NCBI GenBank assembly: GCA_947460235.1
Contig: CANHGK010000004.1
Location: 90,144 to 154,143 of the forward strand
Length of the DNA: 64,000 nucleotides
Direction of reading: 5' to 3'
DNA from: Paenibacillaceae bacterium
GTDB taxonomy: Bacteria > Bacillota > Bacilli > Paenibacillales > CANHGK01
The notes beneath the pieces were generated by a model. That model searched no databases. It was not told the origin of the DNA and saw only the letters and a program-made list of their open reading frames with translations. Position 1 is the stretch's first letter. Every line of letters begins with the position of its first letter. A program made the position numbers and the translations under genes. Below, one piece after another: positions 27,613-62,200 of the stretch.

Positions 27613-30543
27613 GTGGAAAAAAACTCAAAATTTGGTTCTGGTTTCATTTCGAAATTAGTTACCTTGCGCTGGTGGATGATCATATTATGGATTGCACTAT
27701 CTGCAATTTCGATTACTATATTTCCTGATTTGACAGCAGTAGTTAAGCAAACTGAGCAATTATTTATCCCCAAAGATTATGCATCTCAACGAGCAAAAAT
27801 AGTACTTGCAAATATTTCACCTGATCAAAATAGCAAATCAAATGTGATTCTTGTTCTTTCTAGAAAAAACGTTGCGTTAACCGATGCCGACCGATCATGG
27901 TTAAAATCAAAACATGACGAATTATCTTCCCACAAAACAGAATGGGCACTTCAACAAGTTATTTCAGCCTTTGATGCGCCTGAATTAAAATCAAAATTCC
28001 AAAGTAAAGACGGTTCAGTAGAACTGATTTCAATCGGTTTTAAATATGCCGATTATGATTCACACACGCAGGATGGTTTAAAAAATGTCACCGAATTATT
28101 CGCAAATCCACCGAGTGGAACTGAAGCTCAATTAACCGGAAGTGCTGCCATTTCCAGTGATATCAATAAAACATCAGAAGAAGGTTTAAAGAAGTCTGAG
28201 ATTCTTACAATTGTACTCGTACTTGCTATATTATTGATTGTCTTTCGCTCACCCATCGCACCGTTCATACCACTAATCACCATAGCTGTATCATTTATGA
28301 TCACAAGAGGACTTGTCGCTTGGGCTGCACAAAAAGGTTTACCGGTTTCAACGTTTACTGAGTCATTTTTAATCGCCGTGTTATTTGGTGCTGGAACTGA
28401 TTATTGCATTTTGATCATGCAACGCTTTCGCGAAGAATTACTTAAAACCGATTCAACAAAAGTAGCTTTAATACAAACAATGAAAGCTGTATACCAAACC
28501 GTTATATTCTCCGGAAGCACTGTGTTAATTGCATTTTTAATCGTTGGATTCGCCCAATTCGGTATGTATCGTTCAGCCGTTGGAGTTGCGATAGGCATGG
28601 CCATTACCATTATCGCCTGTGTTACGCTGGCGCCTGCATTGTTAGCTGTTTTTGGGAAATCTGTATTCTGGCCAGTCCGTATTGATCAAATTAAAGGTCA
28701 CGGAGATTCTGGAATTTGGAATAAGTTAGGTTCTTTATCGCGAAAACGCGCAGGGTTGATCACAATTATTAGCTTATTAATTATCGCTCCAATTGTAGGT
28801 ATTTTTCAAAATGTACGATCTTTTGATGATCTAGCTGAAATCGATTCAAATCTAGGTTCTGTAAAAGGTTTCGAAACGGTTAAGCAAACGCTTGGTGAAG
28901 GTAATGTTTTTCCACTTACTATTGCAATTACCTCTGATTCAAATATGCGGTTACGTGAAGTTTTATCCGGAATTGAACAACTTAGCGAAGCTGCTGCCGC
29001 AATAGAACATGTTCAAGAAGTCCGAAGCGCAACAAGGCCACTCGGTGAACTTGTCAAAGAGTTACAAGTTCCGAATCTGATCAAAAAATCCAATGAAGGT
29101 TTATCTGATCTACGTGAAGGCGTTTCTAAAATTTCAAATGGTTTGGGAAATGCGAAAACAACACTCGATCATAACACCTCTAAAATCAACGAGCTTTCAA
29201 AAGGGTTGATATCATTGGCTGATGGCTCAAAACAATTATCAACAGGAATGAATCAATTCAATGCTGCATTTGATCAAACGGAATCAGGACTACATCGAAG
29301 TGCAGAAGCTAATGCACAAATATCTAGCGGCATCTCAAAGTTGAAACAAACGATTGATTCAATGGACACTGATTTACAAGCGATAGCAAAATCAAATCCC
29401 GAACTCTTAAGTGATATTCATTTTCTTACAATCATGGGTAAACAAAAAGGAATTAGTAATGGACTGCAAAAAACATCAGTTGGCACTGACAAATTAACTT
29501 CAGGCTTAAATCAACTTGATACCGCAATGAATCAAATGTCACCTGGATTAAAACAAGCGATCCAAGGCTTAAGTAATTTGGAAAAAGGTCAACGCGACGC
29601 TTCCTCCGGAGTAGATCAACTTAATGAAGGCATCGTTCAATTAAGCAGAGGGCTCGGAGATACGGTTACAGGATTGAACAAAATTGATGACGGAATGGGT
29701 CAAGTTCAACAATTTCAGAATAAACTATCTGCTGAAGGCAGCAAACAAATTCCTGGATTTTATATTCCTCAAGAAGCATACGATTCAAATGATTTCCAAA
29801 AAGCATTAGATGTATATGTATCAAAAGATGGTCACTCGGCAAAAATCGAAGTGATTTTAAGTCAAAACCCATATTCACTAGAAGCAATGGCAACTGCAGA
29901 AAAGGTTCGAAACGCTCTTGAGAGTACTGCAAATCAAAGCGGATTCTCTAATGTTGAATTATTACCTACCGGAACAACAGCACAATTCAATGAACTACGC
30001 GATATTTCACTTTCTGATTTTATTCGGACTGGTTCGCTCGTGTTAATTGGAATTTATATTGTATTACTGTTAATGATGCGATCATTGATTGCTCCATTCT
30101 ATATTATGATTTCATTAGCTCTTAATTATGGAATTACGATGTCAATTCTCGAACTTGTTTTTGTAAAATTACTCGGTCAAGATGGGCTTAAATGGTCCGT
30201 TGCATTTTTCGTGTTTTTAATAATCGTTGCACTTGGCGTAGATTATTCCATTTTCTTAATGGCTAGGTTTAAAGAAGAATATAAACCTGGGATGACTGGA
30301 ATTGCGATGCAAAAAGCGATGAAGTCAACGGGTAGCGTCATTATATCTGCAGCACTCATCATGGGCGGAACATTCTCGGCATTAATGCTCGCAGGTATGC
30401 ATACTTTGGCAGAAATCGGAGCTGGGATATTAATTGGTTTATTAATTTATGCAATTTTCTTTATGGGCTTCTTTGTCCCGGCTTTAGCTAATTTGATTGG
30501 TGAAGGAAATTTTTGGCCTTTCCATCGGAAAATAGACAAATAA
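27613..30543 (+). CDS. MMPL/RND-family exporter with coiled-coil insert (YdfJ-like)
   Basis: A 976-residue membrane protein with two sets of six helices. The GTG start follows GAGGGAG. VLFGAGTDYCILIMQRFREEL in the first half and VALGVDYSIFLMARFKEEY in the second carry the GxDY-type residues of proton-driven MMPL pumps. Between the halves (about 490-690) lies a long helical insert with repeated LSxGLxxLxxG patterns, like those in YhgE/Pip proteins. It probably spans the envelope outside the membrane. The likely cargo is a lipophilic drug or lipid. It is controlled by the divergent TetR gene. Confidence 0.88.
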   Translation: MEKNSKFGSGFISKLVTLRWWMIILWIALSAISITIFPDLTAVVKQTEQLFIPKDYASQRAKIVLANISPDQNSKSNVILVLSRKNVALTDADRSWLKSKHDELSSHKTEWALQQVISAFDAPELKSKFQSKDGSVELISIGFKYADYDSHTQDGLKNVTELFANPPSGTEAQLTGSAAISSDINKTSEEGLKKSEILTIVLVLAILLIVFRSPIAPFIPLITIAVSFMITRGLVAWAAQKGLPVSTFTESFLIAVLFGAGTDYCILIMQRFREELLKTDSTKVALIQTMKAVYQTVIFSGSTVLIAFLIVGFAQFGMYRSAVGVAIGMAITIIACVTLAPALLAVFGKSVFWPVRIDQIKGHGDSGIWNKLGSLSRKRAGLITIISLLIIAPIVGIFQNVRSFDDLAEIDSNLGSVKGFETVKQTLGEGNVFPLTIAITSDSNMRLREVLSGIEQLSEAAAAIEHVQEVRSATRPLGELVKELQVPNLIKKSNEGLSDLREGVSKISNGLGNAKTTLDHNTSKINELSKGLISLADGSKQLSTGMNQFNAAFDQTESGLHRSAEANAQISSGISKLKQTIDSMDTDLQAIAKSNPELLSDIHFLTIMGKQKGISNGLQKTSVGTDKLTSGLNQLDTAMNQMSPGLKQAIQGLSNLEKGQRDASSGVDQLNEGIVQLSRGLGDTVTGLNKIDDGMGQVQQFQNKLSAEGSKQIPGFYIPQEAYDSNDFQKALDVYVSKDGHSAKIEVILSQNPYSLEAMATAEKVRNALESTANQSGFSNVELLPTGTTAQFNELRDISLSDFIRTGSLVLIGIYIVLLLMMRSLIAPFYIMISLALNYGITMSILELVFVKLLGQDGLKWSVAFFVFLIIVALGVDYSIFLMARFKEEYKPGMTGIAMQKAMKSTGSVIISAALIMGGTFSALMLAGMHTLAEIGAGILIGLLIYAIFFMGFFVPALANLIGEGNFWPFHRKIDK

Positions 30544-30545
30544 AA

Positions 30546-30611
30546 AAACTCTGCCTCAACGTAATTCATCAAATGGAGATGAACACTTCGCGTTGGTGCA
30601 GAGTTTTTTTT
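30546..30611. terminator. Terminator after the MMPL gene
   Basis: AAACTCTGC.TCAACG pairs with CGTTGGTGCAGAGTTT and continues into eight T. It also serves the convergent CBM20 gene. Confidence 0.8.
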
Positions 30612-30613
30612 AT

Positions 30614-31849
30614 TTAAAACGAGATATTTATTCCTGACTCAGATGATGTTTCATATGATCGATTAGTTCCAGCTTGCCATTTTATGAACGTTCCGGAAAC
30701 ATCTTTAATAACAATTTTGTATTTCAACGTTTTATTAGCTTTTAATTGAATCGTCCCAGTCCAATTTGGATATTTTGTGTTACCCGAATTAGTTGATAAC
30801 ATAAAGTTCACCGGAACTGGATTAGCCCAACTATCGGTATTATAATCTCCAATAATCCAACAATTTTGACCAGGTGATGTCGTACAATTTGATACATTAA
30901 CGGTTACCGTCACTGTTGATTCCGCAGGTGTTGGTGTTGGTATTAAAGTTGGTGTTGGTATTAAAGTTGGTGTTGGTGTTGGAGTCAATCCCGGAATCGG
31001 TGTAGGCGTTTCAGGCAACGCTGTTGTTCCAGGTAACGGCGTTGGAGTCGTTTTAGTAACAACTAATGGTGATCCTGATGGCAACACTGATGCTGATGGA
31101 TTAGGCGTCGGCGGTATATTACCCTTTGCGACTGTTCCATCTTCATATAATGAGTAACTACCTGCCCCATCAACTTGATAAACCTTTCGAACACAATACT
31201 TCCAGAATTTCGAATCGAGTTTGCACATGAAATTCATTCCACCATATACATTTATCAGTGAACTTTTATTCCAAGATCCAACGATAATTGGATTCATCAT
31301 TGGTGTCATTCCAGTATGTGTTGACGGTCCATCCTTCTCTTCACCCAATTGTACGACATCAATTCCCTTTAACCACAACGGATTCTTTATATAATCATCC
31401 GTATATAGATGTAATGCAAAAGATAAAATTGGTGTTGGATCGGGTGTAGGTGCTGGAGTAACACTAGGTATTTCGGTCGGAACTTCCGATGGTGCTGGAG
31501 TCTCGTTCGGTATTGTAGGTGCTGGTGTAATATATACAATTTGAGGTTCTGGTGTCGTGTTAAGTTGAACCTGTAAATCATAAATTTTTGACTGTAATTC
31601 ATCCACTTGTTTTGCATATAAATTATTCGCTTGAATTAATTGTTTGTAATCTGGTGGATAGGTTACTTTGTAAACGATCTTAGGGGTTGGGGTTGGAGAT
31701 GGTTTGACTTTACTGGCTGAAGTTGTTGTCGTTTTTTTGGCAGGTGAATTCTTGGATGCTTTAGTTGCTCCGAACCCGTTCGGAGTAATTGTCGTCATTA
31801 ATAGGATGCACACTGTTAGTAATGATAATAACGGTTTAATCTTGGACAT
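30614..31849 (-). CDS. Secreted CBM20 starch-binding protein without catalytic domain
   Basis: A 411-residue secreted protein. The signal peptide is about residues 1-29 (LLSLLTVCILLMTTITP), followed by a Lys/Thr-rich stretch, a short coiled coil (QANNLYAKQVDELQSKIYDLQ) and Pro-Thr-Glu linkers. A middle domain of about 110 residues (SFALHLYTDDYIKNPLW to EDGTVAKG) has two cysteines and no family I know. A second Thr-Pro linker leads to a C-terminal CBM20 (VTVTVNVSNC..PGQNCWIIGDY...NRSYETSSESG). The start ATG follows GAGGTG by six bases. It probably binds starch at the cell surface and may be non-catalytic. Confidence 0.7.
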   Translation of the reverse strand: MSKIKPLLSLLTVCILLMTTITPNGFGATKASKNSPAKKTTTTSASKVKPSPTPTPKIVYKVTYPPDYKQLIQANNLYAKQVDELQSKIYDLQVQLNTTPEPQIVYITPAPTIPNETPAPSEVPTEIPSVTPAPTPDPTPILSFALHLYTDDYIKNPLWLKGIDVVQLGEEKDGPSTHTGMTPMMNPIIVGSWNKSSLINVYGGMNFMCKLDSKFWKYCVRKVYQVDGAGSYSLYEDGTVAKGNIPPTPNPSASVLPSGSPLVVTKTTPTPLPGTTALPETPTPIPGLTPTPTPTLIPTPTLIPTPTPAESTVTVTVNVSNCTTSPGQNCWIIGDYNTDSWANPVPVNFMLSTNSGNTKYPNWTGTIQLKANKTLKYKIVIKDVSGTFIKWQAGTNRSYETSSESGINISF

Positions 31850-32031
31850 GTAATTCACCTCAATAATTATTTTTCTTTAAAAATACTATTCTTCAATTCA
31901 ATTAAAAAACCTGCATTTAATTTGATTTTTCTGATTTTTCAATCGCTTTATGCAAACCCTCTTTTCGTGCATAACTAACAAAAATCGGGTACACTATACT
32001 CATCCCTTGTAGAACGAAAGTAGGAATTAAC

Positions 32032-33579
32032 ATGAGTGAACAAAACAAAAGTAATAAACCAACAAGATCAGGTAACACCATTCGCAGAGGCGGACCAGCA
32101 AAACCTTTTCGCGGAGCAAAACCTGGCGGAATTCAACGCCCAAGAAATCCTAAACAAATTGGCGTAAAAGGCATGCATGCACATGATGCCGATGCGTTAA
32201 TGCCAGGCGCACCACTTGTCATAACAATTAAACGAATCGGAATCAACGGTGAAGGCGTCGGTTATTACCGCCGCAAAGCAGTTTTTATAACAAACGCGTT
32301 ACCTGGTGAAATCGTTCATGCATCCGTGACGAACGTCCACTCGACCTATATCGAAGCGAAATTAACAAAGGTCGAAAAAAAATCATCAGATCGAATCGAT
32401 CCAAAATGTCCTGTGTATGACGAATGCGGCGGTTGCCAATTGCAACATGCTAAGTATGAATCACACGGTTCCTATAAAGCTGAATTGATTCAAGAAGCAT
32501 TTACACGGTATGCCGGAGTAGAAGATCTACCAATTCGTAGTATGGCATCCGCAAGCGAACCTTGGGGATACCGAAATAAAGCTCAATTCCAAGTTCAATT
32601 GAGTTTTAATGCCGAAGGTAAACCAACCGTTGAATTAGGTCTGTATAAAGCAGATAGCCATGATCTTGTTGATGCAGTAAAAGCGGGTTGTGCAGTACAA
32701 CACCCAATGACGCTTCGTGTAATGGAAAAAGTGAAAACATTTGTTAATTCCGTGAAGGCGCCGATCCATCATCCGCGTCACAATCCTAGCGGTTTACGTA
32801 CCGTTGTAACTCGCGTTTCAATGGCTACAAAGGAAGTTCAATTAACATTTGTAACCGGAAGTGCCAACTTCCCTCCACTTTCTAAAATTGTGGAGCGTGT
32901 TCAACGCGAACTACCAGAAGTGACAACCATTGCACATAATATTCAACCGAATGATACATCACTCGTTTTTGGTGAAGAAACTCGAATCATTTGGGGTAAA
33001 CCGGAAATGACAGAACGTTTTCTAGACTTAGATGTTCACGTATCCCCAAGGGCTTTTTTACAATTAAATCCTGTTCAAACTGAAAAGTTATATCGTTATG
33101 TGATGGAAGCAGCTAATTTACAAGGTACCGAACAAGTTGCTGACATGCACTGTGGTACTGGAGCAATTGCTCTTTCCCTCGCTCCACTTTGCGGACAAGT
33201 ACGTGGTGTTGATACGACAGAAGAAGCGATCGAAGATGCAAAGAAAAATGCGGAAAAACGCCAAGCAAAAAACTCTCGCTTTTTTATTGGGAAAGCAGAA
33301 TCATGGTTACCACGTTGGTTGCATAGCGGTTGGATACCAAATGTCGTTGTACTTGATCCGCCTCGGAGCGGTTGTGAAGAAGATTTATTACGCGGTTTAA
33401 TTCGCCGTGAGTTTGTTGCTGGAACAAGGATCGTTTACGTTTCCTGTAATCCTGCCACATTAGCTAAAGATGCAAACTGGTTGCTTAAAGCAGGATATCA
33501 ATTAAAATGGATTCAACCCGTTGATATGTTCCCACAAACTGCTCATGTTGAGGCAGTTGCATTATTTATTAGAAAATAA
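32032..33579 (+). CDS. 23S rRNA (uracil-C5)-methyltransferase, RlmD/RlmCD type
   Basis: A 515-residue TrmA-superfamily enzyme. A basic, low-complexity N-terminal tail of about 50 residues precedes a TRAM domain (VITIKRIGINGEGVGYY). The 4Fe-4S cysteines are in CPVYDECGGCQLQH and KAGCAVQ. The methyltransferase domain has ADMHCGTGAIALSLAP, LDPPRSGCEED and the catalytic Cys in VYVSCNPATLAKD. It makes m5U in 23S rRNA; Gram-positive homologues may modify two sites. The N-terminal tail is unusual and may add RNA affinity. Confidence 0.9.
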   Translation: MSEQNKSNKPTRSGNTIRRGGPAKPFRGAKPGGIQRPRNPKQIGVKGMHAHDADALMPGAPLVITIKRIGINGEGVGYYRRKAVFITNALPGEIVHASVTNVHSTYIEAKLTKVEKKSSDRIDPKCPVYDECGGCQLQHAKYESHGSYKAELIQEAFTRYAGVEDLPIRSMASASEPWGYRNKAQFQVQLSFNAEGKPTVELGLYKADSHDLVDAVKAGCAVQHPMTLRVMEKVKTFVNSVKAPIHHPRHNPSGLRTVVTRVSMATKEVQLTFVTGSANFPPLSKIVERVQRELPEVTTIAHNIQPNDTSLVFGEETRIIWGKPEMTERFLDLDVHVSPRAFLQLNPVQTEKLYRYVMEAANLQGTEQVADMHCGTGAIALSLAPLCGQVRGVDTTEEAIEDAKKNAEKRQAKNSRFFIGKAESWLPRWLHSGWIPNVVVLDPPRSGCEEDLLRGLIRREFVAGTRIVYVSCNPATLAKDANWLLKAGYQLKWIQPVDMFPQTAHVEAVALFIRK

Positions 33580-42186: not shown

Positions 42187-42293
42187 CATAAAACCTCTTT
42201 TCAATGACAAAATCCTTAATTTTAACTTTAAAAGAAATAAAGAAATAAATCTATGACCTACATGTTCATAAATCTACCCTAGGAGTGACTATT

Positions 42294-43175
42294 TTGAAAA
42301 CACCTATAAAAATCATGTTATCCTCAACATTGTTCTTTGCTTTACTCGGAAACCCTTCTTTAGCGGCAGATGGGAGTTCAGATGTACCCGTTGCTCCGAA
42401 TACATCCGTAACACAAGTGTCGGCTATGCCTGAACCGTCTCAAACACCAACGATCGCGCCTGAAGCACCGGTTCCAAGCACGACTCCTACGCCGCCAGTG
42501 ATCCCGAATCTCACACCTCCGCCACGTATGTACTTAAAATCAGATGGTCAAGGTACAACGTATAATGGCGAAATGAAAAACAGCCAAATCGACGGATACG
42601 CGATTGTAACTTACAGTGACGGAAAAATGTTCACGGGTGAACTGCACGGCTATCAACCGAATGGACCAGGCGTCATGAGTTTTCCTGACGGAACAAAATT
42701 TGAAGGAACGTTTCTAGAAGGTGGACCATTAAATGGGAAGTTAACATTAAACGATTCTTTTTCGAGCTTTGAAGGGACTTTTGATAATACCTTACCCGTG
42801 ATACAAGCAGCTGTTCATGCGCTAGGAAAAACAAAACGACAAGCTACTGTAAACGGGAAAGTAGTTGACACCGTTTGGGCAGGTATTTTTTTCGGAGAAA
42901 ATCTAAAACGTGGCACAATTAATTTTACAAGTAACTCTGTATTTAAAGGATACACTGCAACAAATCCTGCGCATATCGAATCCGTTTATTTCGGATATTT
43001 TCATCCGATTGGAATGGGCTCAATCACCAATGAATCCGGCGATATTTTTTATGGGAAATGGAGATATGATGAAGCTAACGGAGACATTCATGCGATCGGT
43101 TCGATCAAATTAAAAAATGGCAAAGTCAAAGCAGCAAAATGGTTTAATGGAAATTGGAAAATCTCAACAAAATAA
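42294..43175 (+). CDS. Secreted MORN-repeat protein
   Basis: A 293-residue protein. The signal peptide is about 1-25 (IMLSSTLFFALLGNPSLAA), followed by a Pro/Thr linker to about residue 75. At least three MORN motifs follow (GTTYNGEMKNSQIDGYA; YSDGKMFTGELHGYQPNG; FPDGTKFEGTFLEG). A C-terminal part then has weaker repeats (GDIFYGKWRYDEANGD). The TTG start follows AGGAG by eight bases. MORN sheets bind lipids or proteins. The linker style matches the secreted starch proteins nearby. Function unknown. Confidence 0.72.
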   Translation: MKTPIKIMLSSTLFFALLGNPSLAADGSSDVPVAPNTSVTQVSAMPEPSQTPTIAPEAPVPSTTPTPPVIPNLTPPPRMYLKSDGQGTTYNGEMKNSQIDGYAIVTYSDGKMFTGELHGYQPNGPGVMSFPDGTKFEGTFLEGGPLNGKLTLNDSFSSFEGTFDNTLPVIQAAVHALGKTKRQATVNGKVVDTVWAGIFFGENLKRGTINFTSNSVFKGYTATNPAHIESVYFGYFHPIGMGSITNESGDIFYGKWRYDEANGDIHAIGSIKLKNGKVKAAKWFNGNWKISTK

Positions 43176-44560: not shown

Positions 44561-47500
44561 TCAATAAAACTTGAATGTCGCTAATGGAAAAGATGCCTGT
44601 GTTACTGCTCCCCATTGCACTACAATATCATATCGATTACTACTAGAATTTGTTGAAGCAATTCGAGTGGAAGTATCTAAACCTGTTCCGGTTTTCTCGA
44701 CGACCGAGCCGTCTCCTAACGTATATTTATATTCTAGTACTGAGGATTTCGGCACACTAATTGTCACCCGGTATTGATTTGTTGATACTAATTTTAATTT
44801 ATACGCCACAGGATTCCAACCACTTACAGAAGTTGTCAAATTCACATTCTTGTTTTGCGTGTTTTGCGTGATTAAATTAAACGTTACATTAACCATGATC
44901 GGCGTAGGTGTAGCGGTAGGTCTTGGTGTTGCCGTCGGTGCCACTGTCGGAGTAGCGGTAGGTCTTGGTGTTGCCGTCGGTGCAGCTGTCGGTGTAGCGG
45001 TAGGTCTTGGTGTTGCCGTCGGTGCAGCTGTCGGAGTAGCGGTAGGTCTTGGTGTTGCACTTGGCGTTGCACTTGGCGTTGCACTTGGTGTTGCACTTGG
45101 CGTTGCACTTGGCGTTGCACTTGGTGTTGCACTTGGCGTTGCACTTGGCGTTGCACTTGGCGCTGCCGTTGGCGCTGCTGTTGGCGTTGCTGTTGGCGAT
45201 GCTGTTGGCGCTGCCGTTGGCGTTGCTACTGCTGTCGGTGTTGGATTCTGCGAAGCTTTTGGTGTTCCTAAGTAAATCACACCATTTTCAACCGTTACAG
45301 ATCCACCGGTTGCTAACATATAATTTGCTCCATTTTTTGAATCCCAAGTTGTACCGTTCGTGTTAAAGCATGCTTCCGCATTGATCGCTTGGCCAACATT
45401 TAACAATTTTGTCCAATACCCTGAAAAAACCGTGGAGGATTGCATTGCAACTCCTGGAACAGTCGTCCATGTACCACCTTGAGGGCGGTAATGAATATTA
45501 ACAGAAGTCCATGATGACTTAAAGTAAACTTGTACTTTATTACCATTTGGATCAACGGTCGGAGTCGCTGTCGGAATCGGAGTTGCTGTTGGAACTGGTG
45601 TCGCAGTCGGCGCAACTGGTGCTTTGTCTGTAATAAATGGATCAGTTCCAACAATCGCTCCTGCTGCATCTTCAACAATTTTACCTGTTGATGCATCTTT
45701 AGAATAACGACCAGTACCAACGTATACGGTTTGAATTTCTGATTTAGTTACATTCCCTAGCGAATCGGTTGATTCAATATAGTAATCAATTAAACTGTCA
45801 CGATAATTACTTACATAACTATAATAGAGATCTCCAATTTCTTGTGCAGGTAACGTTTTGTATAATTGATTCGGAGCTGACGTCTGCCAAGCAACACCAT
45901 TCATATCTACTTTACGGCTACGTTTAGTCATAGGTGTTGAATCCCATGCAGTAACTTTTGATGCATCAATGTTTGCTACGCCTGAAGTTTGTAATGCAGA
46001 TGGATCATATACACGAAACGTATTGTCTTTTACATCTGCAACATTTGACGTGTGTTTACGTGTTTTAAGTACCATCGTTTGAATCCCACTTACATCGTAA
46101 CCATACGTGTAAATTCCGAAACGATTGTTGAAATACTCCAAACTCCAACCTTCTGCTTTGCCTTTATTTGCGCTACCTGGGTTATACGGATAACGTTGAA
46201 CCCACCACATCGAAGGACCTGTTTTATCTTTGGAAATATTTAATGAAACGTAAGGCTTTGCAAAATAAAGTGATTGGTTAAATGCCAATGTTGGTTTTAT
46301 ATTGTCATCCGTATTTTCGTCATAATAACCGAAACCAGAATCCATAGCAGGTAATAAGAAGTACCATGACAATTCTGCTGGATTTGCACCACCGATGTAA
46401 TCTTTTGTTGGGTCACCTTTTACAGGGTACGAGATCATCCAAGGATTTAATTGATTTCCAGTGTATGTTACTTGTCTGTCCAATGAACTCGTAGGTTGCC
46501 AGTATGTCGGGTGATCCGATAACCAAATTTGTTCCGCTGTTTTCGCATAGTTCAATGCAGCTTGCAACAAGGCAAAATTGCGTTCCAAGTAGTTCCAACC
46601 ATATTCAAAAGAAACTTGATGTCCTGCAGGATTTCCATTGATATCATTAATCGGGGAATAACTGCTATTGATTGCACGGTTGAAATCTGCAAATTGTCCT
46701 TTCCATATTCCAGGCGGCATTTGCCAGTGATACCACGTCGGATCTGAAGATGAATCACGCGTATCGATCCATGAACCGTCTTGAATGTGCTGTACATCAT
46801 CTTGAGGAATTGGATTGGCTTTCAAATAATCATTGATACCCATTCCCTTAAATCCAGTCTCGGAATAAGTGATGTTCGCACCATTTAACCAAGTGCCTTC
46901 GTCCCCAGCACGACCAGAGGAATTATCTCCATCATGTGCCACAACAAAATATTGCTTGCGCGGTTGTAATGCTTCATATGCTTTCAAAAATCCACCGCTA
47001 ACGGAACCTTGGTAGCCTTCTTCCCAAGAAGATGCTTGCTCCACTGGAATTCCAGCAATTCGATCTTCGACACCTGTTGAAGGATCAACATATTTTACCC
47101 AGTGCGGCGTCGATGCGAATGGAAACTTATTTTGTGTTACTTGTTGCTCATTGAACATCGGTTTAGAAACCCAAGAACCAATATTGCTTGTATTTTGAAA
47201 ATCAGCACGATTCGGCGGTGAAACCATCGTATCTTTTCCGATATCGTCACGGTATGGATAGTCTTTCAACGCACGAGAAAAATGATTATTTCCCATGACA
47301 GACCACTCAATACCAAGCTTCTTAAGTGCAGGGATGATCCGCTCTGAAAATCCAAGTTCTGTCGGGAAAAATCCTTTGGATGATACAAAATCGGAACCTA
47401 AAAAGTAGGATTGTGCTAATGTCGCATTTTGATAAATCATATCTTTAATCAAATATTCATTACCAACTAATGGGCCCATGCTATGATGACCGGAAAAATG

Positions 47501-48037
47501 AACCATATCCAGCTGTTTCTCACCAGTTGATGTGTAATTGTTTTTATATGGTGTGCGCCAGTTGCTACCCCAATTCAAATTTGAATATCCAGATACATTA
47601 TTTAATTGGTTAAGAGATTGAACATTATTAATGACTGCACCAGACATTGTAACTTGAATCGAAGCAGACGTGAACTTCTTCAAATTGTTCATAATGTTTG
47701 GAATCCAATCCATATAAGCACCCGTTTTGGCGTGATGTGAATAGTATGAAACCAAATCATCATGCGGCATTGGATTACCGTTCGGTAAAAAGAAATAATT
47801 AGCCGGAGGTGTTTTTTTGTTTTCAATCACTTGCCCATCATACGTATAACGGATTGGAGATCCCACGGAAGTACTACCATATTTCGATGTATCGTAAAAC
47901 GCAAAAAAATTCGGCATATGATTGTGATATACGTGCGTTGCTGCAATCTCAGCATTGGAAACCGGCAAACCAAACGATGTTACCGATAATACACCCAACA
48001 AAACAGAACTAACCCATTTTTTAATTTTCAATTTCAT
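44561..48037 (-). CDS. Secreted GH119 alpha-amylase with CBM25 and CBM20
   Basis: An 1158-residue secreted enzyme. The signal peptide is about 1-29. The catalytic domain (about 30-800) carries SKGFFPTELGFSERI with Glu227 and YFVVAHDGDN with Asp369. From memory, the family type IgtZ of Bacillus circulans uses Glu231 and Asp373, so both residues fit with the same offset of four. A CBM25 follows (about 834-925: VQVYFKSSW..IHYRPQGGTW..GVAMQ), then a Ser/Ala-Thr-Pro linker of about 120 residues, then a CBM20-like end (VNVTFNLITQNTQNKNVNL). GH57 is the related alternative. The start ATG follows AGAGGCGAG. Confidence 0.82.
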   Translation of the reverse strand: MKLKIKKWVSSVLLGVLSVTSFGLPVSNAEIAATHVYHNHMPNFFAFYDTSKYGSTSVGSPIRYTYDGQVIENKKTPPANYFFLPNGNPMPHDDLVSYYSHHAKTGAYMDWIPNIMNNLKKFTSASIQVTMSGAVINNVQSLNQLNNVSGYSNLNWGSNWRTPYKNNYTSTGEKQLDMVHFSGHHSMGPLVGNEYLIKDMIYQNATLAQSYFLGSDFVSSKGFFPTELGFSERIIPALKKLGIEWSVMGNNHFSRALKDYPYRDDIGKDTMVSPPNRADFQNTSNIGSWVSKPMFNEQQVTQNKFPFASTPHWVKYVDPSTGVEDRIAGIPVEQASSWEEGYQGSVSGGFLKAYEALQPRKQYFVVAHDGDNSSGRAGDEGTWLNGANITYSETGFKGMGINDYLKANPIPQDDVQHIQDGSWIDTRDSSSDPTWYHWQMPPGIWKGQFADFNRAINSSYSPINDINGNPAGHQVSFEYGWNYLERNFALLQAALNYAKTAEQIWLSDHPTYWQPTSSLDRQVTYTGNQLNPWMISYPVKGDPTKDYIGGANPAELSWYFLLPAMDSGFGYYDENTDDNIKPTLAFNQSLYFAKPYVSLNISKDKTGPSMWWVQRYPYNPGSANKGKAEGWSLEYFNNRFGIYTYGYDVSGIQTMVLKTRKHTSNVADVKDNTFRVYDPSALQTSGVANIDASKVTAWDSTPMTKRSRKVDMNGVAWQTSAPNQLYKTLPAQEIGDLYYSYVSNYRDSLIDYYIESTDSLGNVTKSEIQTVYVGTGRYSKDASTGKIVEDAAGAIVGTDPFITDKAPVAPTATPVPTATPIPTATPTVDPNGNKVQVYFKSSWTSVNIHYRPQGGTWTTVPGVAMQSSTVFSGYWTKLLNVGQAINAEACFNTNGTTWDSKNGANYMLATGGSVTVENGVIYLGTPKASQNPTPTAVATPTAAPTASPTATPTAAPTAAPSATPSATPSATPSATPSATPSATPSATPSATPSATPRPTATPTAAPTATPRPTATPTAAPTATPRPTATPTVAPTATPRPTATPTPIMVNVTFNLITQNTQNKNVNLTTSVSGWNPVAYKLKLVSTNQYRVTISVPKSSVLEYKYTLGDGSVVEKTGTGLDTSTRIASTNSSSNRYDIVVQWGAVTQASFPLATFKFY
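44905..45235. repeat. Tandem repeats coding the GH119 linker
   Basis: From about 45048 to 45167 there are some ten 12-bp units, CTTGGCGTTGCA or with one T change, coding Ser-Ala-Thr-Pro on the minus strand. Beside them lie about three near-identical units of 42 bp coding Pro-Arg-Pro-Thr-Ala-Thr-Pro blocks. Such arrays easily change length by slippage. Confidence 0.85.
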
Positions 48038-48203
48038 CTCGCCTCTCATAGGTGTTGTTAAAAAACAAGGAATGTTTAGGGTGGACGACCGCAACTAGAT
48101 GGTGTCCGTTTGGTAAGAAATACCGGGTAGTACAAAGGGGGGGGAACGCAGAATCAGGAGATTTCACTTGAATAATCAGAAAACAATGCCGATTACAGTT
48201 TTT
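48038..48203 (-). promoter_or_regulatory. Long 5' leader of the GH119 gene
   Basis: About 165 bases from the promoter to the start. It holds CCCCCCCC (complement of the G run at 48137-48144) and no gene. No known riboswitch was recognised. Confidence 0.4.
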
Positions 48204-49687: not shown

Positions 49688-49866
49688 CACATAAACCTCC
49701 TAAGTCTAGATCGATTGAGTTTATTTTCAAGGATGAATCTTAAGATTTCCTTAAAAAATCGTAAGATCGCACTAAAATGTTTCAAAGAAGGTTTTCATAC
49801 CGTTCTCGTTGAAAAGATAAATATTGTCTCATGCTTTCCTCGTAGAATGGATTGGAGCGGATCATC

Positions 49867-50310
49867 ATGAATCATAATCAACGAGGAGTTTCGTTAATTG
49901 AAATGATCCTTGCAATTTTTCTATTCGGATTAATTCTTTCATCAATTCTCGTTGTCTTTTCCTATACAAAACAATTATCAATCCAAGAACAACAATTAGA
50001 TCAATCGAAAGAAATTGCTCAACAAATGCTACGCGCACTTCAAGAACAAACCAAAGAAAATCAAATTACCGTATTTGGTGAATCGATCCCGCTTACAAAG
50101 CATACGTTAACTTCCAAATATTCATTCATCACAAGTGATTTTAATGTAAGCATTGACGCGTTACCAATCCAATCTAGTGAAACCATTACGCTGGGTACAA
50201 AACATTATTTGATGAGTACATACTTCCGCAAATTTAGGGTATGCGTCTGGAAAATCGGATCGGATCAACGACGAGGTATTCAACTAGAACAATTCGTTGT
50301 TGCCCAATAG
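49867..50310 (+). CDS. Type IV prepilin-like protein (PilV/GspI position)
   Basis: A 147-residue protein with a class III signal: NQRG cut before VSLIEMILAIFLFGLILSS, with Glu at +5 and a long hydrophobic helix. The globular part is short and has no clear family. The start ATG follows GGAG by nine bases. It is the first gene of a three-gene operon of prepilins. No assembly ATPase, platform protein or prepilin peptidase is in the window, so these must be encoded elsewhere if the operon works. Confidence 0.82.
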   Translation: MNHNQRGVSLIEMILAIFLFGLILSSILVVFSYTKQLSIQEQQLDQSKEIAQQMLRALQEQTKENQITVFGESIPLTKHTLTSKYSFITSDFNVSIDALPIQSSETITLGTKHYLMSTYFRKFRVCVWKIGSDQRRGIQLEQFVVAQ

Positions 50311-50346
50311 TCATGAAGATTCATGATGAAAAAGGAGAATCCAACG

Positions 50347-52725
50347 ATGTACATGAAAAACGAAAAAGGCTCAGCAATCGTTGCGGTTTTAATCGTCCTA
50401 ATGATCAGTTCATTTTTAATCGTTACAGAACTGATGGTCTTGAACATGAATTATACCGATCAAAACCGAACTATTTCGATTTTAAAAGCACACACGATCG
50501 TTGATTCGACCGGAAATGTCATCAAAAGAATACAAGAAGCTGCTCTGAAAGATGGAACTGACTTATCCTATTCAACTCTTACTTCCTTGAGCAGTCAGAC
50601 CTCTTCACTTGTAAAATTATACGATTCAAATTCTGCAAGTATTTTCGTCCAAAACGATATAAGTAGCGGAAATTATTCGATGTATATCCAAAGCATTTTA
50701 AATAATCAAAAACAATCTCTAAAATTAATTTCCACGAATCGATTGATCACACAACCAGAATTTATGTTGATCAATCAAAAGACAGGGCGATGTGTTGATA
50801 TTGTTAGCGGCGGAACTTCGGATGGTACGGCCATTTGGAATTGGACCTGTAATGGAACAGGTGCACAAGTTTTTAGGACCATTCAAACTAACAACGGCTA
50901 TTTTAAAATTCAAAATTCGACAAGTAATAAAGTGATTTCAATTCAAAACAACGCAACAAATGATGGTGCATCCATTGTCACAAACACGGATACGAACGCA
51001 TATTCACAGCAATTCAGTTTCGAATCGGTCACTGGGAATACTTACCGCCTTGTGAATCGTAATAGCAGTAAATGCATCGGGATCGGAAATAATTACCCCA
51101 CAACATTTGATCGAGAATTATTTTTACAGCGCACTTGTTCATCGACCGATACGAGTTTGCAATTTTTACTTGTGCGTACCGATATGTCGATCAATATGAG
51201 TGAAACTGGATTTTATATTGACAATGCATTTCAACTTCGGAACGTTAAAAGTAACAAATGTGTTGATCTATACATGGCAAATCCGAGCGACGGAACAAAC
51301 ATTTGGCAATATGATTGCAATAATACTAATGCACAAAAATTCAATTTCACTTCGACGGATGCAAATCAATTCGAAATCCGCAACATTGATTCGCTAAAAA
51401 ATATGGAAGTGGAAGCCGGCAGTTTATTGGATGGTGCGGACATCCGACAATGGTCCACTAGAAATACATTGTATCAACAGTGGGAAGTCACAGCACTTAA
51501 TGACAGTAGCAATCCTTCAGGTAATTTTTCGATTGGAAAGTGTACTGGTACAGACCGCAATACAAATTGGTATTGTAATGGTTCCGTCAAATTCAATTTA
51601 TCAAACAAATTATCAAACAAGTGTATGGGTGTCACAAATGGTTCATTGTCTTCCGGAGCAGATCTTCGACAATATGAATGTAATGGATTATCAGATCAAC
51701 AATTTTACTTGAATTTAGTTGATTCAGCCATTTCCCTCGCTCCGTACGATTTTTTGAGAAACGGACGCTATCAAATCGTCTATCATTATGCAAACAAATG
51801 CATGGACGTTCCAAATGCATCAACATCAAGTGGCGCTATCATACAAACTTGGACTTGCAACAATACAAATGCTCAAAAATTTGATTTCACTTATAGCGGT
51901 GATGGATATTACACAATTTCCAATGTTAATTCCTTAAAATCACTGGATTTCGATCCATCATCCCAATCGCTCATTCAGAACACAACAAGTACAAGTAATT
52001 CTCAACGCTTTCGTTTTCATTTGCTAAATGGTAACCAATTTTCAATTACGAATCGCGCCCAATTAAATTGTATTGATACCACAGGACAAACTTCTACATT
52101 TGTGTACGAAATAAAAGACGGACTGATCTTTAAACAAAATGGTTGTTATGCAGCGCCGCCGCAAATTTTTCGAATCGAACCGGCAGGTGTTACTGGTGAA
52201 ACTCTTCCTATTGGCCGATATCGCATTCAAAACATGAACAGTGGAAAATGCATGAGTATTGCAAACGCTGATCTAACCAATGGCGCCAAAGTTGTACAAT
52301 TGACTTGTGAGGATCAACCAGAACAAATGATGGATCTGAATTTGTCCAGCAATCAACATTTCGGTTTGTTCAATATGTTAAGTGGGAAAAGTATAGAAGT
52401 AGCAAATGCATCTCAAGCAAACGGTGCGACCGTCCAACAATGGACAAGTGTAGGCCAAGCAAATCAAGAAGTATATTTTGTAAAAACAAATACGGCTGAT
52501 GTCTTTGAAATACATCCGCTTCACAGCAATAAATGTTTGGACACACAAAATCAGAGTACAACGGAAAACACTAACTTAGTACAAATGCAATGTAACAATC
52601 AGTCATCTCAACAATGGAAAATCACACCTTGGCGTCTACCTGTAAATTATTCAAAGTTTCCCGATATGCGCACAAATTCAAGTCATAATTTCACGTTACT
52701 TCAAGCCATCGTAAATGGTTTTTGA
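50347..52725 (+). CDS. PilX/GspK-like prepilin with four ricin-B-type lectin domains
   Basis: A 792-residue protein. The N-terminus KNEKGSAIVAVLIVLMISSF is a class III signal and helix without the Glu+5, as in PilX and GspK proteins that cap a pilus tip. From about residue 135 to the end there are twelve repeats of the ricin-B type: GRCVDIVSGGTSDGTAIW, NKCVDLYMANPSDGTNIW, LLDGADIRQWS, NKCMGVTNGSLSSG, NKCMDVPNASTSSG, GKCMSIANADLTNG, QANGATVQQW, NKCLDTQNQS, QSSQQWKI and others. Three repeats make one beta-trefoil, so four are expected. Many Cys pairs suggest disulfides outside the cell. It should bind a sugar. The start follows AAGGAGA by eight bases. Confidence 0.82.
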   Translation: MYMKNEKGSAIVAVLIVLMISSFLIVTELMVLNMNYTDQNRTISILKAHTIVDSTGNVIKRIQEAALKDGTDLSYSTLTSLSSQTSSLVKLYDSNSASIFVQNDISSGNYSMYIQSILNNQKQSLKLISTNRLITQPEFMLINQKTGRCVDIVSGGTSDGTAIWNWTCNGTGAQVFRTIQTNNGYFKIQNSTSNKVISIQNNATNDGASIVTNTDTNAYSQQFSFESVTGNTYRLVNRNSSKCIGIGNNYPTTFDRELFLQRTCSSTDTSLQFLLVRTDMSINMSETGFYIDNAFQLRNVKSNKCVDLYMANPSDGTNIWQYDCNNTNAQKFNFTSTDANQFEIRNIDSLKNMEVEAGSLLDGADIRQWSTRNTLYQQWEVTALNDSSNPSGNFSIGKCTGTDRNTNWYCNGSVKFNLSNKLSNKCMGVTNGSLSSGADLRQYECNGLSDQQFYLNLVDSAISLAPYDFLRNGRYQIVYHYANKCMDVPNASTSSGAIIQTWTCNNTNAQKFDFTYSGDGYYTISNVNSLKSLDFDPSSQSLIQNTTSTSNSQRFRFHLLNGNQFSITNRAQLNCIDTTGQTSTFVYEIKDGLIFKQNGCYAAPPQIFRIEPAGVTGETLPIGRYRIQNMNSGKCMSIANADLTNGAKVVQLTCEDQPEQMMDLNLSSNQHFGLFNMLSGKSIEVANASQANGATVQQWTSVGQANQEVYFVKTNTADVFEIHPLHSNKCLDTQNQSTTENTNLVQMQCNNQSSQQWKITPWRLPVNYSKFPDMRTNSSHNFTLLQAIVNGF

Positions 52726-52751
52726 TGAATGAATGCAAAGGAGGTGTCCAT

Positions 52752-53246
52752 ATGAAAACTATCATACGGCACCTCCATGCGAATCAACGCGGGGTATCTT
52801 TAGTCGAATTACTTGTAACAATTGTTTTAATTGGACTTGTTTTTGCAATCTCGTTTCAAATCGTTGGCTATATGAACAATAGCAATGCCGAAATCGCACG
52901 AAAAGAAAGCTTATTACGTGAAATGCGGTTTGCAATGGATGAAATTCGCTCAGAATGGATCAAAGAATCATTTCACAATTTAACTTGTAACAATTGCATC
53001 CTTCAATGGGAAGCTGGCAATCATAAAATTTTATTTGCAATCGATACACGTGGACTATATCAGCAAGACCAGACAAACCAAATCAATATGCTTGCGCCAC
53101 ACGCAACGACAGGAACTAGTATGTCAATTATAAAAAATCAGCTTACCGTCAATATCGTTTTAAAAAACCAAACGACGATGTGTTCACAAAAAACAGTCTT
53201 TGCTAGAACCGATTGGATGAATTCGACGTTAACTAGTTCGGATTAA
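52752..53246 (+). CDS. Type IV prepilin-like protein (PilW/GspJ position)
   Basis: A 164-residue protein with a class III signal: NQRG before VSLVELLVTIVLIGLVFAIS, Glu at +5. The soluble part contains TCNNCI and one more Cys. The start follows a near-perfect AAAGGAGGTG. It is the third gene of the prepilin operon. Its last 18 bases overlap the convergent PHP gene. Confidence 0.82.
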   Translation: MKTIIRHLHANQRGVSLVELLVTIVLIGLVFAISFQIVGYMNNSNAEIARKESLLREMRFAMDEIRSEWIKESFHNLTCNNCILQWEAGNHKILFAIDTRGLYQQDQTNQINMLAPHATTGTSMSIIKNQLTVNIVLKNQTTMCSQKTVFARTDWMNSTLTSSD

Positions 53247-54216: not shown

Positions 54217-57200
54217 TTATTCGACATTACCATATATCGGAGTTTCTGAAGTTGTGTAACGATAATGCATCGCCAACGTATCATCCTGAATCCAAGCATT
54301 ATTTTCTGAATGTTCCAATGTGATATTCATATTAGACCAATCGTTTAAGCTATACGATCCGTTGCTTGATAATGACCACAGTGGGAACGAAGCAATATAT
54401 TCACCATTCACAGCATCGTATCGCAATGTTGAGCTATTTTGAACAATGCGCTCCAACGTCCAAGCATTTGAATTTACTACATATTTATTAGCAATATTAC
54501 CATCGTTCGCTACTTCAAGCAGATAAGCAGCTCCGTGATCTAATGTTGCACCTGACGTGGATGTTACCTTTTTCGAAGCCGTTGACGCTTTGAAATCTTC
54601 AGCGTAAATCTTCAACTTCACATTTCCAGATAATGTGTTAGCTGTTTGTGTTTTTACACGTACATATAAATTCTGTGCATCGTTCGAAACGTAAACGCGA
54701 GCAATGTCCAAATTCGAGTTCGTAGAATCATTCAATTCGTCTAAATTATAAGGTACATTATTCCATTGTGAAAGCGCGCCATTTACAGTAATCGATTTAT
54801 TCATACCTGCATTGTATTGGTAAGGAATTACTTTCATATCTTCTTGATTCGTATATGCTAATGCCGTAATGATATACCAAGCCGCTGTTACTGGTTGTAA
54901 TGCAGTACTTACCAATGGGCGCATGTCAATTCTAGAAACTGCCTCACCAGCCGCCATATAACCGAGTGCTGTTCGTGAAACATACCATTGTAAATATTTC
55001 AACGCTTCATCTTTTTCACCGCGATAAATATGATGCAATGCTACATACATAGACATTTGCGGCCATGATGGCTCATCACTCTTCGCTTCATCTCCCGCCG
55101 GACTCCATGGTGATGTGTAGTAGAATATATCTCCATCATAACGAGCTATGCCATATCCATCATGCAATAAATTCGATTTAATTTTGCTAATATGGCTTAC
55201 TGCACGACTTGAATTTGAATCAATGATACCAAGAACCATTAATAAATCAGAAGATGAATCCAATTTCGTATTTATTGTACCATTCGGATAAACAGCTCGG
55301 TTATAGTAGCCTCCGCCACTGTTCCACATCCCTTTGTTATCCCAATCATTACGTTGCAAACTTGTGCGGATCGCACCAGAAACTCCATTCCACCAATCAG
55401 CCATATCTGTTAACCCTTTTGCTCGAGCAGCAGACTGGGCTGCCGTCATCCCTGCAATGTACGTTGCCTGAGTGAAGGTATTGTATTCAATGTTCTCTTC
55501 CCAAATCGAGCTATCAGCCGAGGAATATCCCCACGAATTCATCGTATTAGAGATAAAGTCAGCGGACTTTTTCATTTTGCCCCACATATCATTCAAGAAC
55601 GTAGCGTCATATCCGCTTAATTTGTAATGATTATATGCCCCATAAATCCATAATCCGATAGCATCATGTTCAGGTTCAACAAATTGCACCCAATTTCCAG
55701 TCCATAAATTGAAACACGTTCCAATCGTTCCGTCATCGCGAACACGATCACGCAGGAAGTACCAGTATTTATGAGCCTCTTCACGGAATCCCGCTTTGTC
55801 CAAAATAATTGCCGTAACGGCTGAATCACGTGCCCATACTTTATAACTGTAGTTATACGGATTCGTCGTTGCTGGCATTGCACCGTTTAATGGATTGATT
55901 GCATTTTTAATGGCCACCAAATTACGTTTGTATGTTAAGTTCATACCTTCATCACTAAAACTTACTTGTTTCTTTCCTGGTGCAGTTAACCAATTCGTAT
56001 ACGTCGAACGCGTCGTATTCAACCATTCTTCCGCTGTTTTCGTACGCAGTGTATCGACCGCACTCGTCGTTAACGAAGTTGAAGAATTCATTGAAATTGC
56101 AAATGACCGTTGGATCGAACCATTCGCCGGAATGACAAAACGCGTTTGAAATGCAACACTCATATCAAGTGCCCATTTGTCTACATTATTTTTTAATGTT
56201 GCATTGCGATCAAAAGCGATCCAAGGAGAAACACCGAGGTCATTACTATTTGTGTTCAAATCGTCTGCAACGGTAAAACTACTCGGATCTTCAAACGCAG
56301 TCATCGCAACGACCGCTTGACCAGCACCAGTCATATCCACAAAAATCGTTCTGCGGGATGAATCATACCAACCATGATGCCATTTGTTCGAATTCCCTTG
56401 AGTTTTGTTGTTCAGGTGAATCATTTCTAATAAGTTGTATTCAATTGGCGAACCCGTAGGATTTGTAAATGTATACGTTGCAATGGTGAAATTTTGATTT
56501 GGAACCATGGAGTAATCTTTTTTTACCGTTATCGGCATCGATGATGCACCATAATTCAAATATTTGGTATTCAAAATACCATTTTCATCGTAATAAGCTT
56601 CTGCATTAAAGTTTGTTACATTATTGTATTTCACACCGCTCGTTTCATTTCGGAAAAAGCCTGTATATTCTTTAATCACACTTGTTGACATGTCGTCTTT
56701 ATAATGTAATTCGGCCAAACGAGGGCCATTACCACCTGAAAAACCACCTTGATCAAGTTGACTGATTCGGCTATTCATCCAAATGCCCATCGTATCTTTC
56801 CAATTCGAAAGATAAAGTGATGTAATTGAACGATCCGTAGCTTGTGTAGCTGGCACAGCTGTTACATTTACATTAACCGTCGTTGTAAAACTATAATATC
56901 GAACCAATACTGGGGTCGTACCAATTACAAGCCCTTTAAGTGTCGAAGCAGGCAGCACATCAACATATTGCCAAATATCTGGAGTCAACGTTGTCAAACC
57001 AGAAATATCTACTTTTGTTCCATCAACATAATTAGCATATACTTTGATGGATTTTGATTGTCCCAAGCTAACTTGCAAGGTCGAAGAATCCGTTGAGATA
57101 TTACTAATTTGAGGTGTTCCCACATATTGCACACCTGCCGTCACCGTTGTAATTCCTTGATCAAACGAATAATCAATACCGTTATTATTATCCCAAACGC

Positions 57201-59288: not shown

Positions 59289-62200
59289 TTATTCGATATT
59301 ACTATAGATCGGTGCTTCTGTTGTTGTATTACGATAATGCACGCCTAATGTGTCGTCTTGAACCCATGACGTACCCACTTGATGCTCAAGCGTAATATTC
59401 ATATTTGACCAATCGTTTGTTGCCAATGCACCCGTACTAGAAAATGACCAAAGCGGGAATGAAGCAATATATTCCCCTGTCGTCGCATCATATCTAAGCG
59501 TTGAACTGTTTTGAACATTTCGTTCAAACGTCCAATTTCCACCTGTTACAACAAATTTGTTTGCGAGATTACCATCGTTTTTCACTTCAAGTAAATATTG
59601 TGCACTGTGATCGAGTGCAATTCCCGAAACGCTGGTTGCTGATTTTGCAGCAGCTGATTGCTTAAAGTCTTCTGCATAAATTTGCAATCCGACATTTGCA
59701 CCAGATGTGTTTGGCGATTTCGTTTTGACACGCACGTATAGATTTTGTGCGTCATTTGATACATAAACTTTTGCGATATCCATATCTGCATTTGGTGTAT
59801 CACCTAAATCATCAAGAACATATGGAATATTGCTAAATTGAGTTAATGCACCAGTTACTGTTACCCCTTTATTAAATCCTACATTATACTGATAAGGAAT
59901 TACTTTCAAGTCTGCTTGATCCGTGTAGGCGAGTGCAGTTAATACATACCATGCTGCTGTAACCGGTTCTACCGCTGTACTAATTAATGGACGCATGTCG
60001 ACACGAGAAACTGCTTCACCTGCAGCCATATAACCAACTGCTGTACGGGCAACAACCCACTTCAAATATTTAAGTGCTTCATCTTTTTCGCCGCGATTAA
60101 TATGGTGTAATGCAACATACATCGACATTTGCGGCCACGAAGGTTCATCACTCAATGCTTCGTTTCCAGCTGGACTCCATGGTGATGTGTAATAGAAAAT
60201 ATCTCCATCATATCGAGCAATACCATAACCATCATGTAATAAGTTTGCTTTCACTTTATTAACGTGACTCACTGCACGACTTGAATTCGAATCAATTACA
60301 CCGAGAACCATTAACAGATCTGAAGATGAATCAATTTTGGAATTCAAAGATCCATCTGTAAAAATCGCACGATTATAATATCCACCGTTTGCATTCCACA
60401 TGCCCTTGTTATCTGAATCGTTCCGTTGTATTGACGTACGAATTCCGCTAGCTACACCATTCCACCAATCAGCCGTACCTGCCAATCCAAGATCACGGGC
60501 AATATACTCGGCAGCATTCATCCCTGCAATATAAGTAGCTTGCGTAAAGACATTGTACTCGATATTTTCTTCCCAAATCGAACTGTCCGCCGCACCATAG
60601 CCCCATGCATTGGTTGAACCTGAAATAAAGTCTGCTGATTTCTTCAATTTAGGCCACATATCATTTAAGAACGTCTTATCGTAACCACTTAATTTGTAAT
60701 GATTATAAACGCCCGCAATCCAAAGTCCAATTGCATCATGTTCTGGTTCAACGAATTGAACCCAATTACTTGTAAACAAATTGAAACATGTTCCGATCGT
60801 TCCGTCTGCACGAACGCGGTCGCGTAACCAATACCAATACTTACGCGCTTCTTCACGGAATCCGGCTTTATCAAGAATAATTGCAGTTACTGCCGAGTCA
60901 CGACCCCATACTTTATAACTATAATTATATGGGTTTGTTGTTGCTGGCATTGCACCTGTAATTGGGTTGATAGAGTTTTTAATCGCAATTAAGTTACGTT
61001 TATACGCCAAGTTCATTCCTTCATCGTCAAAATTGACCTGTTTTTTGCCTGGTCCTGTTAACCATGAGTTATAAATTGCTGAAGTATACGAAAACCAGTC
61101 AGTCGGTGTTTTTGCTAACATTTCATCTACCGCTGCAGTTGCATACACTTTTGTTGCATTAACCGTTAAACCAAATGAACGAGTAACTGTTCCATTCGCT
61201 GGAATGACAAAACGAGATTGGAAACCAACATCCATATCCATCGCCCATTTGGATGCATTGTTTTTGAGAACACCGTTATTATTAAATGACCACCAAGGTG
61301 ATGCATTTACATCTGCGGTATTAGTAATCGAATCATCGCCCACCGTATAACTGTTCGGATCTTCAAATGCCGTTAACGCGAGCACGAACTGACCAGCACC
61401 AGTCATATCAACAAACAACGTTTTGCGAGTGGAATCATACCAACCATAATGCATTTTGTTCGAATTACCTGAAGTTTTGTTATTCAAATGCAGTGCTTCA
61501 AGTAAATTATATTCAAGAGGTGCATTCGTGTTGTTCTTAAACGTATACGTTGCAACAGTTACGTTCTTATTAGGTACAGTCGCAAAGTCTTTTGTAATTG
61601 AAATTGGTAATGCTGTCGTGCCGTACTTTTTATATTGCGTTTTCAAAATACCATTTTCATCGAAATAAGCATCCGCATTAAAAGTAGATACATTATTATA
61701 TTTCACGTTATTTGTTTCATCACGGAAATACCCTGTATATTCTTTAATTTGGTTTGTTGCCATATCATCACGGAAATGCACTTCTGATATGCGCGGACCA
61801 TATCCGCCAGAGAAACCACCTTGATCCAATTGTGATATTTTACTGTTCATCCAAATGTTCAACGTGTCATTCCAGTTAGACATATAGAGTGAAGTAACTG
61901 ATCGATCTGTCGCCTGCGTTGCAACTTTTGCTAAGACTGAAACCGTTACGCTGAAAATTTGATCTTGTAATTGGACAATTACATTCGTATTCCCTAACGC
62001 TACAGGAGTCAATGCTCCAGTCGTGCTAACAGCTACAACTCCCGGATTTACCGTTGTATACGTAGCAAATGCTGTCGCATTGCTAATTGTTCCATCTGCA
62101 TAATTCGCAGTAACATTAAGATTTGAGTTGCCATTTAATGCAACTGTTACCGTTTGTTGATCAACTGAAATACTGCGCAATACTGGTTTTGTTTTATAAA

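Follow-up and report, generated by a model that had tools for sequence, protein, structure and literature searches.

A secreted CBM20 protein with an orphan middle domain, a probable non-catalytic starch-adherence protein of a Paenibacillaceae bacterium

What does a secreted protein do with a starch-binding module if no recognisable enzyme accompanies it? The question is raised by a minus-strand gene in a 64,000-nucleotide stretch of DNA from a Paenibacillaceae bacterium (GenBank assembly GCA_947460235.1, contig CANHGK010000004.1), which is referred to here as the window. The open reading frame spans positions 30614-31858 of the window and encodes 414 amino acids counted from a GTG at 31858. 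An ATG at 31849, preceded six bases upstream by GAGGTG, appears the likelier start and gives a gene of 30614-31849 with 411 codons for amino acids; residue numbers throughout refer to the 414-residue frame. The codon usage is gene-like, with a mean log score of 0.165 compared with 0.059-0.196 in 17 genes of the window; four of the five other frames score negatively and one opposite-strand frame reaches 0.109. On one side the gene has a convergently oriented neighbour of the MMPL family (27613-30543) and on the other a divergent one of the TRAM/uracil-methyltransferase type (32032-33579); neither shows anything starch-related, and no glycosidase gene adjoins it. Between it and the MMPL gene lies an inverted repeat (30543-30609, without assigned strand), terminator-like in both directions, whose arms AAAAAACTCTGC (30543-30554) and GCAGAGTTTTTT (30598-30609) were located in the sequence; a hairpin scan with a loop limit of 8 bases did not list it.

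From the N-terminus, the protein consists of a signal peptide, a basic tail, a short coiled coil, a proline-rich linker, the middle domain, a second linker and a C-terminal CBM20, all encoded on the minus strand. A first-pass annotation of this DNA had proposed a signal peptide, coiled coil, linkers, a two-cysteine domain and CBM20, and this layout is borne out, with the signal peptide and the heptads recognised by eye. The predicted signal peptide (residues 4-30; 31769-31849) contains no lipobox that could be seen on inspection of the sequence, C17 being preceded by LTV. It is followed by a Thr/Ser/Pro tail (residues 31-59; 31682-31768) with six lysines or arginines and no acidic residues (D/E), and by the putative coiled coil (residues 70-99; 31562-31651), which was read by eye from its heptad spacing and overlaps a weak Pfam match to the coiled-coil family GIT_CC (residues 72-97, E 0.13) and a low-confidence AlphaFold2 helix (residues 83-101). 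The linkers, each 32% proline, occupy residues 100-143 (31430-31561) and 248-313 (30920-31117), the second being rich in Pro and Thr and encoded by DNA with short tandem repeats. Between them lies the middle domain (residues 144-247; 31118-31429), which indeed contains two cysteines, C212 and C222, and by the present boundaries measures about 104 residues rather than the 110 first assigned. Surface-anchor domains (sortase, SLH, LysM) and dockerins are absent from the Pfam matches, as is the cohesin/dockerin module of amylosome (Sas/Sca) proteins, and there is no LPXTG motif.

The CBM20 (residues 315-414; 30617-30916) is the sole Pfam match of the protein at E ≤ 1, covering residues 315-407 with 49.5 bits against PF00686 (cut-off 23.3, E 3.8e-13). 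The best PDB match is cyclodextrin glucanotransferase 1cyg, across its CBM20. In the alignment with cyclodextrin glucanotransferase (CGTase) chains, in which CGTase positions were counted from the printed alignment ranges, the site-1 residues W344, K381 and W394 correspond to W616, K651 and W662, which we take to be the CGTase equivalents of site 1, and the site-2 residues Y363 and W366 to Y633 and W636. According to PMC9920598, CBM20 site 1 is formed in glucoamylase by Trp543, Lys578 and Trp590, and site 2 in CGTase by Tyr633 and Trp636. As judged from these alignments, the CBM20 is intact with both starch sites retained, and since it also scores above the family cut-off, the protein is likely to bind starch. 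It belongs to the same family as the CBM20 of bacterial cyclodextrin glucanotransferases such as 1cyg, with both sets of site residues aligning, but differs from these enzymes, in which CBM20 is part of the catalytic protein, in having a cysteine pair (C-x7-C) near the N-terminus of the domain and no recognised enzyme attached.

Could the middle domain be that enzyme? At E ≤ 1, neither Pfam nor NCBIfam detects a glycoside hydrolase domain anywhere in the protein, and NCBIfam and PHROGs return no match of any kind, in keeping with the earlier statement that no known catalytic domain is present. The middle domain alone, searched against Pfam at E ≤ 10, gives a single 6-residue match to Urotensin, in a search whose HMMER filters drop most weak matches. 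The clear match to a known hydrolase family that would have contradicted the first-pass reading did not turn up in the searches: the PDB gave a single match at E ≤ 10, to a chain named "Glycoside hydrolase family protein" (8p8e), over 38 residues with E 0.43, which is within chance for a search of 177,635 sequences. That annotation had suggested a new enzyme, and a small glycosidase, esterase or monooxygenase targeted to starch by CBM20 would follow the usual logic of pairing such modules with enzymes; the name of the 8p8e entry and the absence of a match to any known fold could be read in the same direction. We nevertheless consider this unlikely, as the domain has only about 104 residues, with no family match, no relatives found and no catalytic motif recognised by eye, and non-catalytic partners of CBM20 are common in the genome (5 of 9 proteins with a CBM20 match have no recognised hydrolase). 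Nothing positive was found in favour of the enzyme.

None of the collections searched yielded a credible family assignment or relative for the middle domain. In its own genome it matches only itself at E ≤ 10. Among 198 relatives, 66 genomes including its own contain matches at E ≤ 1, the best non-self match having E 0.016. A sample of 398 genomes from the phylum gave matches at E ≤ 0.05 in 10, again including its own; the best of these apart from itself (E 4e-5) aligns over 48 residues, in a frame of 63 residues interrupted by a stop, and we attribute it to chance. When the query was cut back to 101 residues, only the domain itself came back at E ≤ 0.01 from 392 genomes in the order and 398 in the class; the four genome samples overlap. 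In pattern scans, which detect close relatives only, neither one species-level genome collection nor the viral contigs produced a confirmed relative; plasmids contained none, and phages gave two matches with E values of 5 and 6. Pfam, NCBIfam, PHROGs and the PDB likewise provided no credible relative. Since none of the 59 nearest other genomes comes from the family of this genome, a gene restricted to its lineage would look equally orphan. Structure prediction, proposed earlier as a check, was carried out with AlphaFold2 and gave no usable model: without related sequences as input, the pLDDT was 39.0 for the middle domain and 35.6 for residues 53-414. The first of these models consists of strands only, a pattern that may be a hint at best, and a Foldseek search with it gave no match at E ≤ 0.001, the model being too poor to be informative.

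Three families that the domain resembles were explored as possible sources: the phosphodiester glycosidase NAGPA (PF09992), the starch-binding module CBM25 (PF03423) and RCC1 repeats (PF13540, PF00415). Each was aligned by eye and then scored with profiles built from loci that had not been chosen by the query. Shuffled sequences served as controls for all three families and real decoys, counted for NAGPA only, consisted of half-overlapping 110-residue slices of open frames of at least 200 amino acids from the window and loci L001-L047, without frames bearing the motif DG[GA][GSA]S; the slices are not independent of each other. For CBM25 and RCC1 the decoy set holds true family members, and shuffles are the only valid control. 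All three resemblances looked reasonable on inspection, but none withstood comparison with shuffles or real decoys, a caution that motif look-alikes in orphan domains may convince the eye yet not survive simple controls.

NAGPA was considered because a number of weak matches in the 198 relatives end in a NAGPA motif; the middle domain would then be a shortened, inactive remnant of that enzyme. Its segment VYQVDGAGSYSLYEDGTV looks like the NAGPA end motif. The profile of one subfamily scores 6.0 bits, equalled by 5 of 20,000 shuffles and none of 756 real decoys, and the pairwise alignment with one member (L076) is better than that of any of the 756 decoys and is equalled by only 3 of 2,000 shuffles. 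Both family and subfamily were, however, chosen post hoc; a family-wide profile reaches 4.0 bits, which 11 of 20,000 shuffles and 6 of 756 decoys equal, and a second member (L060) is equalled by 8 of 2,000 shuffles and 14 of 756 decoys. The part upstream of the motif carries no signal, being equalled by 291 of 1,000 shuffles and 224 of 500 decoys. A profile derived from family searches alone gives 3.8 bits (equalled by 4 of 5,000 shuffles) and hhalign a score of 19.9 (equalled by 1 of 400 shuffles and 4 of 200 decoys). A 19-sequence profile with 15.7 bits, compared with at best 5.9 in 5,000 shuffles, was discarded as circular, 8 of its sequences having come from the query's own matches. The Pfam NAGPA model finds two other places in the genome, the middle domain not among them. 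The nominal signal is thus restricted to a single motif of about 25 residues, and the assignment was rejected, the similarity lying in the end motif and not across the domain; descent from NAGPA is, in our estimate, very unlikely. Somewhat less improbable, and about on a par with a new enzyme, is a diverged CBM25-type module, which would make the protein an enzyme-free CBM25-CBM20 tandem: CBM25 directly precedes CBM20 in 6 of the 8 proteins with an above-cut-off CBM20, and the low-confidence AlphaFold2 model contains strands only. Yet a profile of 15 CBM25 repeats from the same genome scores 0.1 bits, where at least 40 of 20,000 shuffles score 6.7 or more, and hhalign gives 9.3, compared with 15.9 or higher for at least 20 of 400 shuffles. 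The similarity to these repeats is within that of shuffles, and CBM25 was rejected. (The CBM20 profile itself gives an uncontrolled hhalign score of 14.0 against the middle domain.) The least probable of the readings, one to which we give scarcely any credence, is a fragment of a β-propeller with RCC1-like blades, completed by oligomerisation through the coiled coil. The best non-self match among the 198 relatives (E 0.016) falls in an RCC1-repeat protein by Pfam (L010), and RCC1 repeats occur in another CBM20 protein of the same genome, but RCC1 profiles give 2.1 and 1.3 bits, within the range of shuffles, the 15 best of 20,000 scoring at least 6.2; this family was rejected as well. Because the CBM25 and RCC1 scores lie within shuffles and the NAGPA signal is confined to one motif, the middle domain was filed in no family.

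The remainder of the genome (2.72 Mb in 42 contigs) provides a context for a CBM20 protein of this kind. Eight CBM20 places are found by the Pfam model, seven of them above the cut-off; a ninth, found by a three-sequence alignment, also scores above the cut-off in Pfam. The carriers include three GH13 α-amylases, two of which begin at contig ends, and a GH57 protein in the window whose CBM20 is below the cut-off; the other five of the nine have no glycoside hydrolase match, at E ≤ 1 for the window protein and E ≤ 0.01 (Pfam) for the remaining four. Of these four, L138 (4184-7897, contig C3) combines a CBM20 near the N-terminus with RCC1 repeats, L139 has weak β-propeller matches together with CBM25, CBM20 and CBM4_9, L140 has three CBM25 and one CBM20, and L141 (4087-5640, contig C8) has a prepilin N_methyl motif, fn3, CBM25 and CBM20. 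The window protein and L138 are the two exceptions to the placement of CBM25 directly before CBM20. The cysteine pair near the CBM20 N-terminus is present in four of the eight CBM20 domains compared (the sub-threshold GH57 domain excluded), those of the window protein, L138, L139 and L140, all without a recognised hydrolase; it is missing from the three amylases and the prepilin-type L141, and from all 29 CBM20s examined in related genomes, which were taken from the best-scoring among 130 genomes with a match. In a tree of 37 CBM20 rows, the four domains with the pair are not shown to be one clade: the label requires two changes on the tree, one sufficing in 56% of 200 bootstrap trees. The window itself is rich in starch-degradation genes. 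On its minus strand are the GH57 protein (44561-48094), with one CBM25 by Pfam, and two GH15 proteins (54217-59139 and 59289-63896), with two and four CBM25 stretches, and on the plus strand a further GH15 protein (772-2766) without a CBM match.

On the basis of these data we favour, with reasonable if incomplete confidence, the interpretation of the protein as a starch-adherence protein that is secreted and non-catalytic. Once exported, it would grip granular starch through its C-terminal CBM20, with the coiled coil forming oligomers that would add avidity and the two proline-rich linkers acting as stalks. The basic tail, the orphan domain or both might keep it attached to the cell wall or offer a second face for binding glycans or partners, and starch would thereby be kept near cells that secrete amylases and glucoamylases with CBM25 and CBM20. 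Oligomerisation, wall contact and capture of granules are steps that we infer. In support of starch adherence are the intact CBM20, the lack of any other Pfam, NCBIfam or PHROGs domain at E ≤ 1, the five proteins without a recognised hydrolase among nine with CBM20, the cysteine pair common to four of these five and missing from the amylases and the 29 CBM20s examined in related genomes, and the GH57 and GH15 proteins with CBM25 in the same window. Against it we count the missing anchor domain and LPXTG motif, the MMPL and TRAM/uracil-methyltransferase neighbours with no adjoining glycosidase, the one weak PDB match of the orphan domain to a protein named as a glycoside hydrolase (E 0.43), and a CBM20 tree that does not group this domain with the others containing the cysteine pair. 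The first-pass alternative to an enzyme, a cell-surface anchor for starch granules, fits a genome with four other CBM20 proteins lacking a recognised hydrolase; since no anchoring device is recognisable, surface attachment should be regarded as conjectural.

Some helper proteins for starch adhesion are already known, and what is new here is confined to the orphan domain and to the way the parts are combined. The closest precedent is Cgt of Actinoplanes sp. SE50/110, described as a secreted, CBM20-only protein with starch binding shown by assay and multimerisation assumed (PMC7275007). CBM20 is the sole recognised domain in both proteins, starch binding being assayed for Cgt and predicted for the window protein. 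In contrast to Cgt, which has 149 amino acids and no extra domain, the window protein has 411 amino acids, a coiled coil, two proline-rich linkers and the orphan domain; some 280 residues, including a globular-looking domain, extend beyond the signal peptide and CBM20, and the compactness of Cgt is lacking. Single-domain CBM20 proteins are listed there in 17 other species, including Paenibacillus sp. P22 (PMC7275007). An Actinoplanes strain lacking cgt showed no apparent growth phenotype (PMC7275007), so proteins of this kind may matter little. Sas20 of Ruminococcus bromii is described as a secreted, highly flexible protein that binds starch and has no enzyme domain; it contains a dockerin and two characterised starch-binding domains, of which the first has a CBM26-like fold (PMC9112005). 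The window protein resembles it in being secreted, in having no recognised enzyme domain and in containing a domain of narrow distribution, and differs in combining CBM20 with an uncharacterised domain and in having no dockerin match.

A broader and more speculative proposal, which we regard as possible but rather doubtful, is that a new family of binding domains is seen here for the first time in the middle domain, and that several carriers without enzymatic function present starch binding in this lineage (orphan-domain, RCC1-repeat, propeller-like, prepilin and multi-CBM proteins, four of them with a CBM20 cysteine pair not seen in the relatives examined), together constituting a starch-adhesion system without cohesin-dockerin scaffolds. 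If so, it would add a means by which a bacterium retains starch granules without a scaffold, as well as a new small domain.

Several further observations concern other proteins of the genome. The prepilin-type L141 may be a type IV pilin or pseudopilin that binds starch; a literature search for a starch-binding prepilin of this kind matched no paper in full, and pilin-related proteins are described as raised on resistant starch (PMC13271388). On the plus strand of the window, three consecutive open reading frames (49852-53246), in which an 800-amino-acid protein with many ricin-B lectin repeats stands between two short proteins bearing N_methyl prepilin motifs, suggest a pilus-linked lectin. 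The RCC1/CBM20 protein L138 is adjoined on the opposite strand by a serpin-family protein (L138:2674-3975), and additional RCC1-repeat matches are found on contigs C23 and C30 in open frames of 874, 837 and 579 amino acids. Finally, the plus strand of the window at 42285-43175 encodes a 296-amino-acid protein, secreted-looking by eye, in which a proline-rich segment is followed by a MORN repeat.
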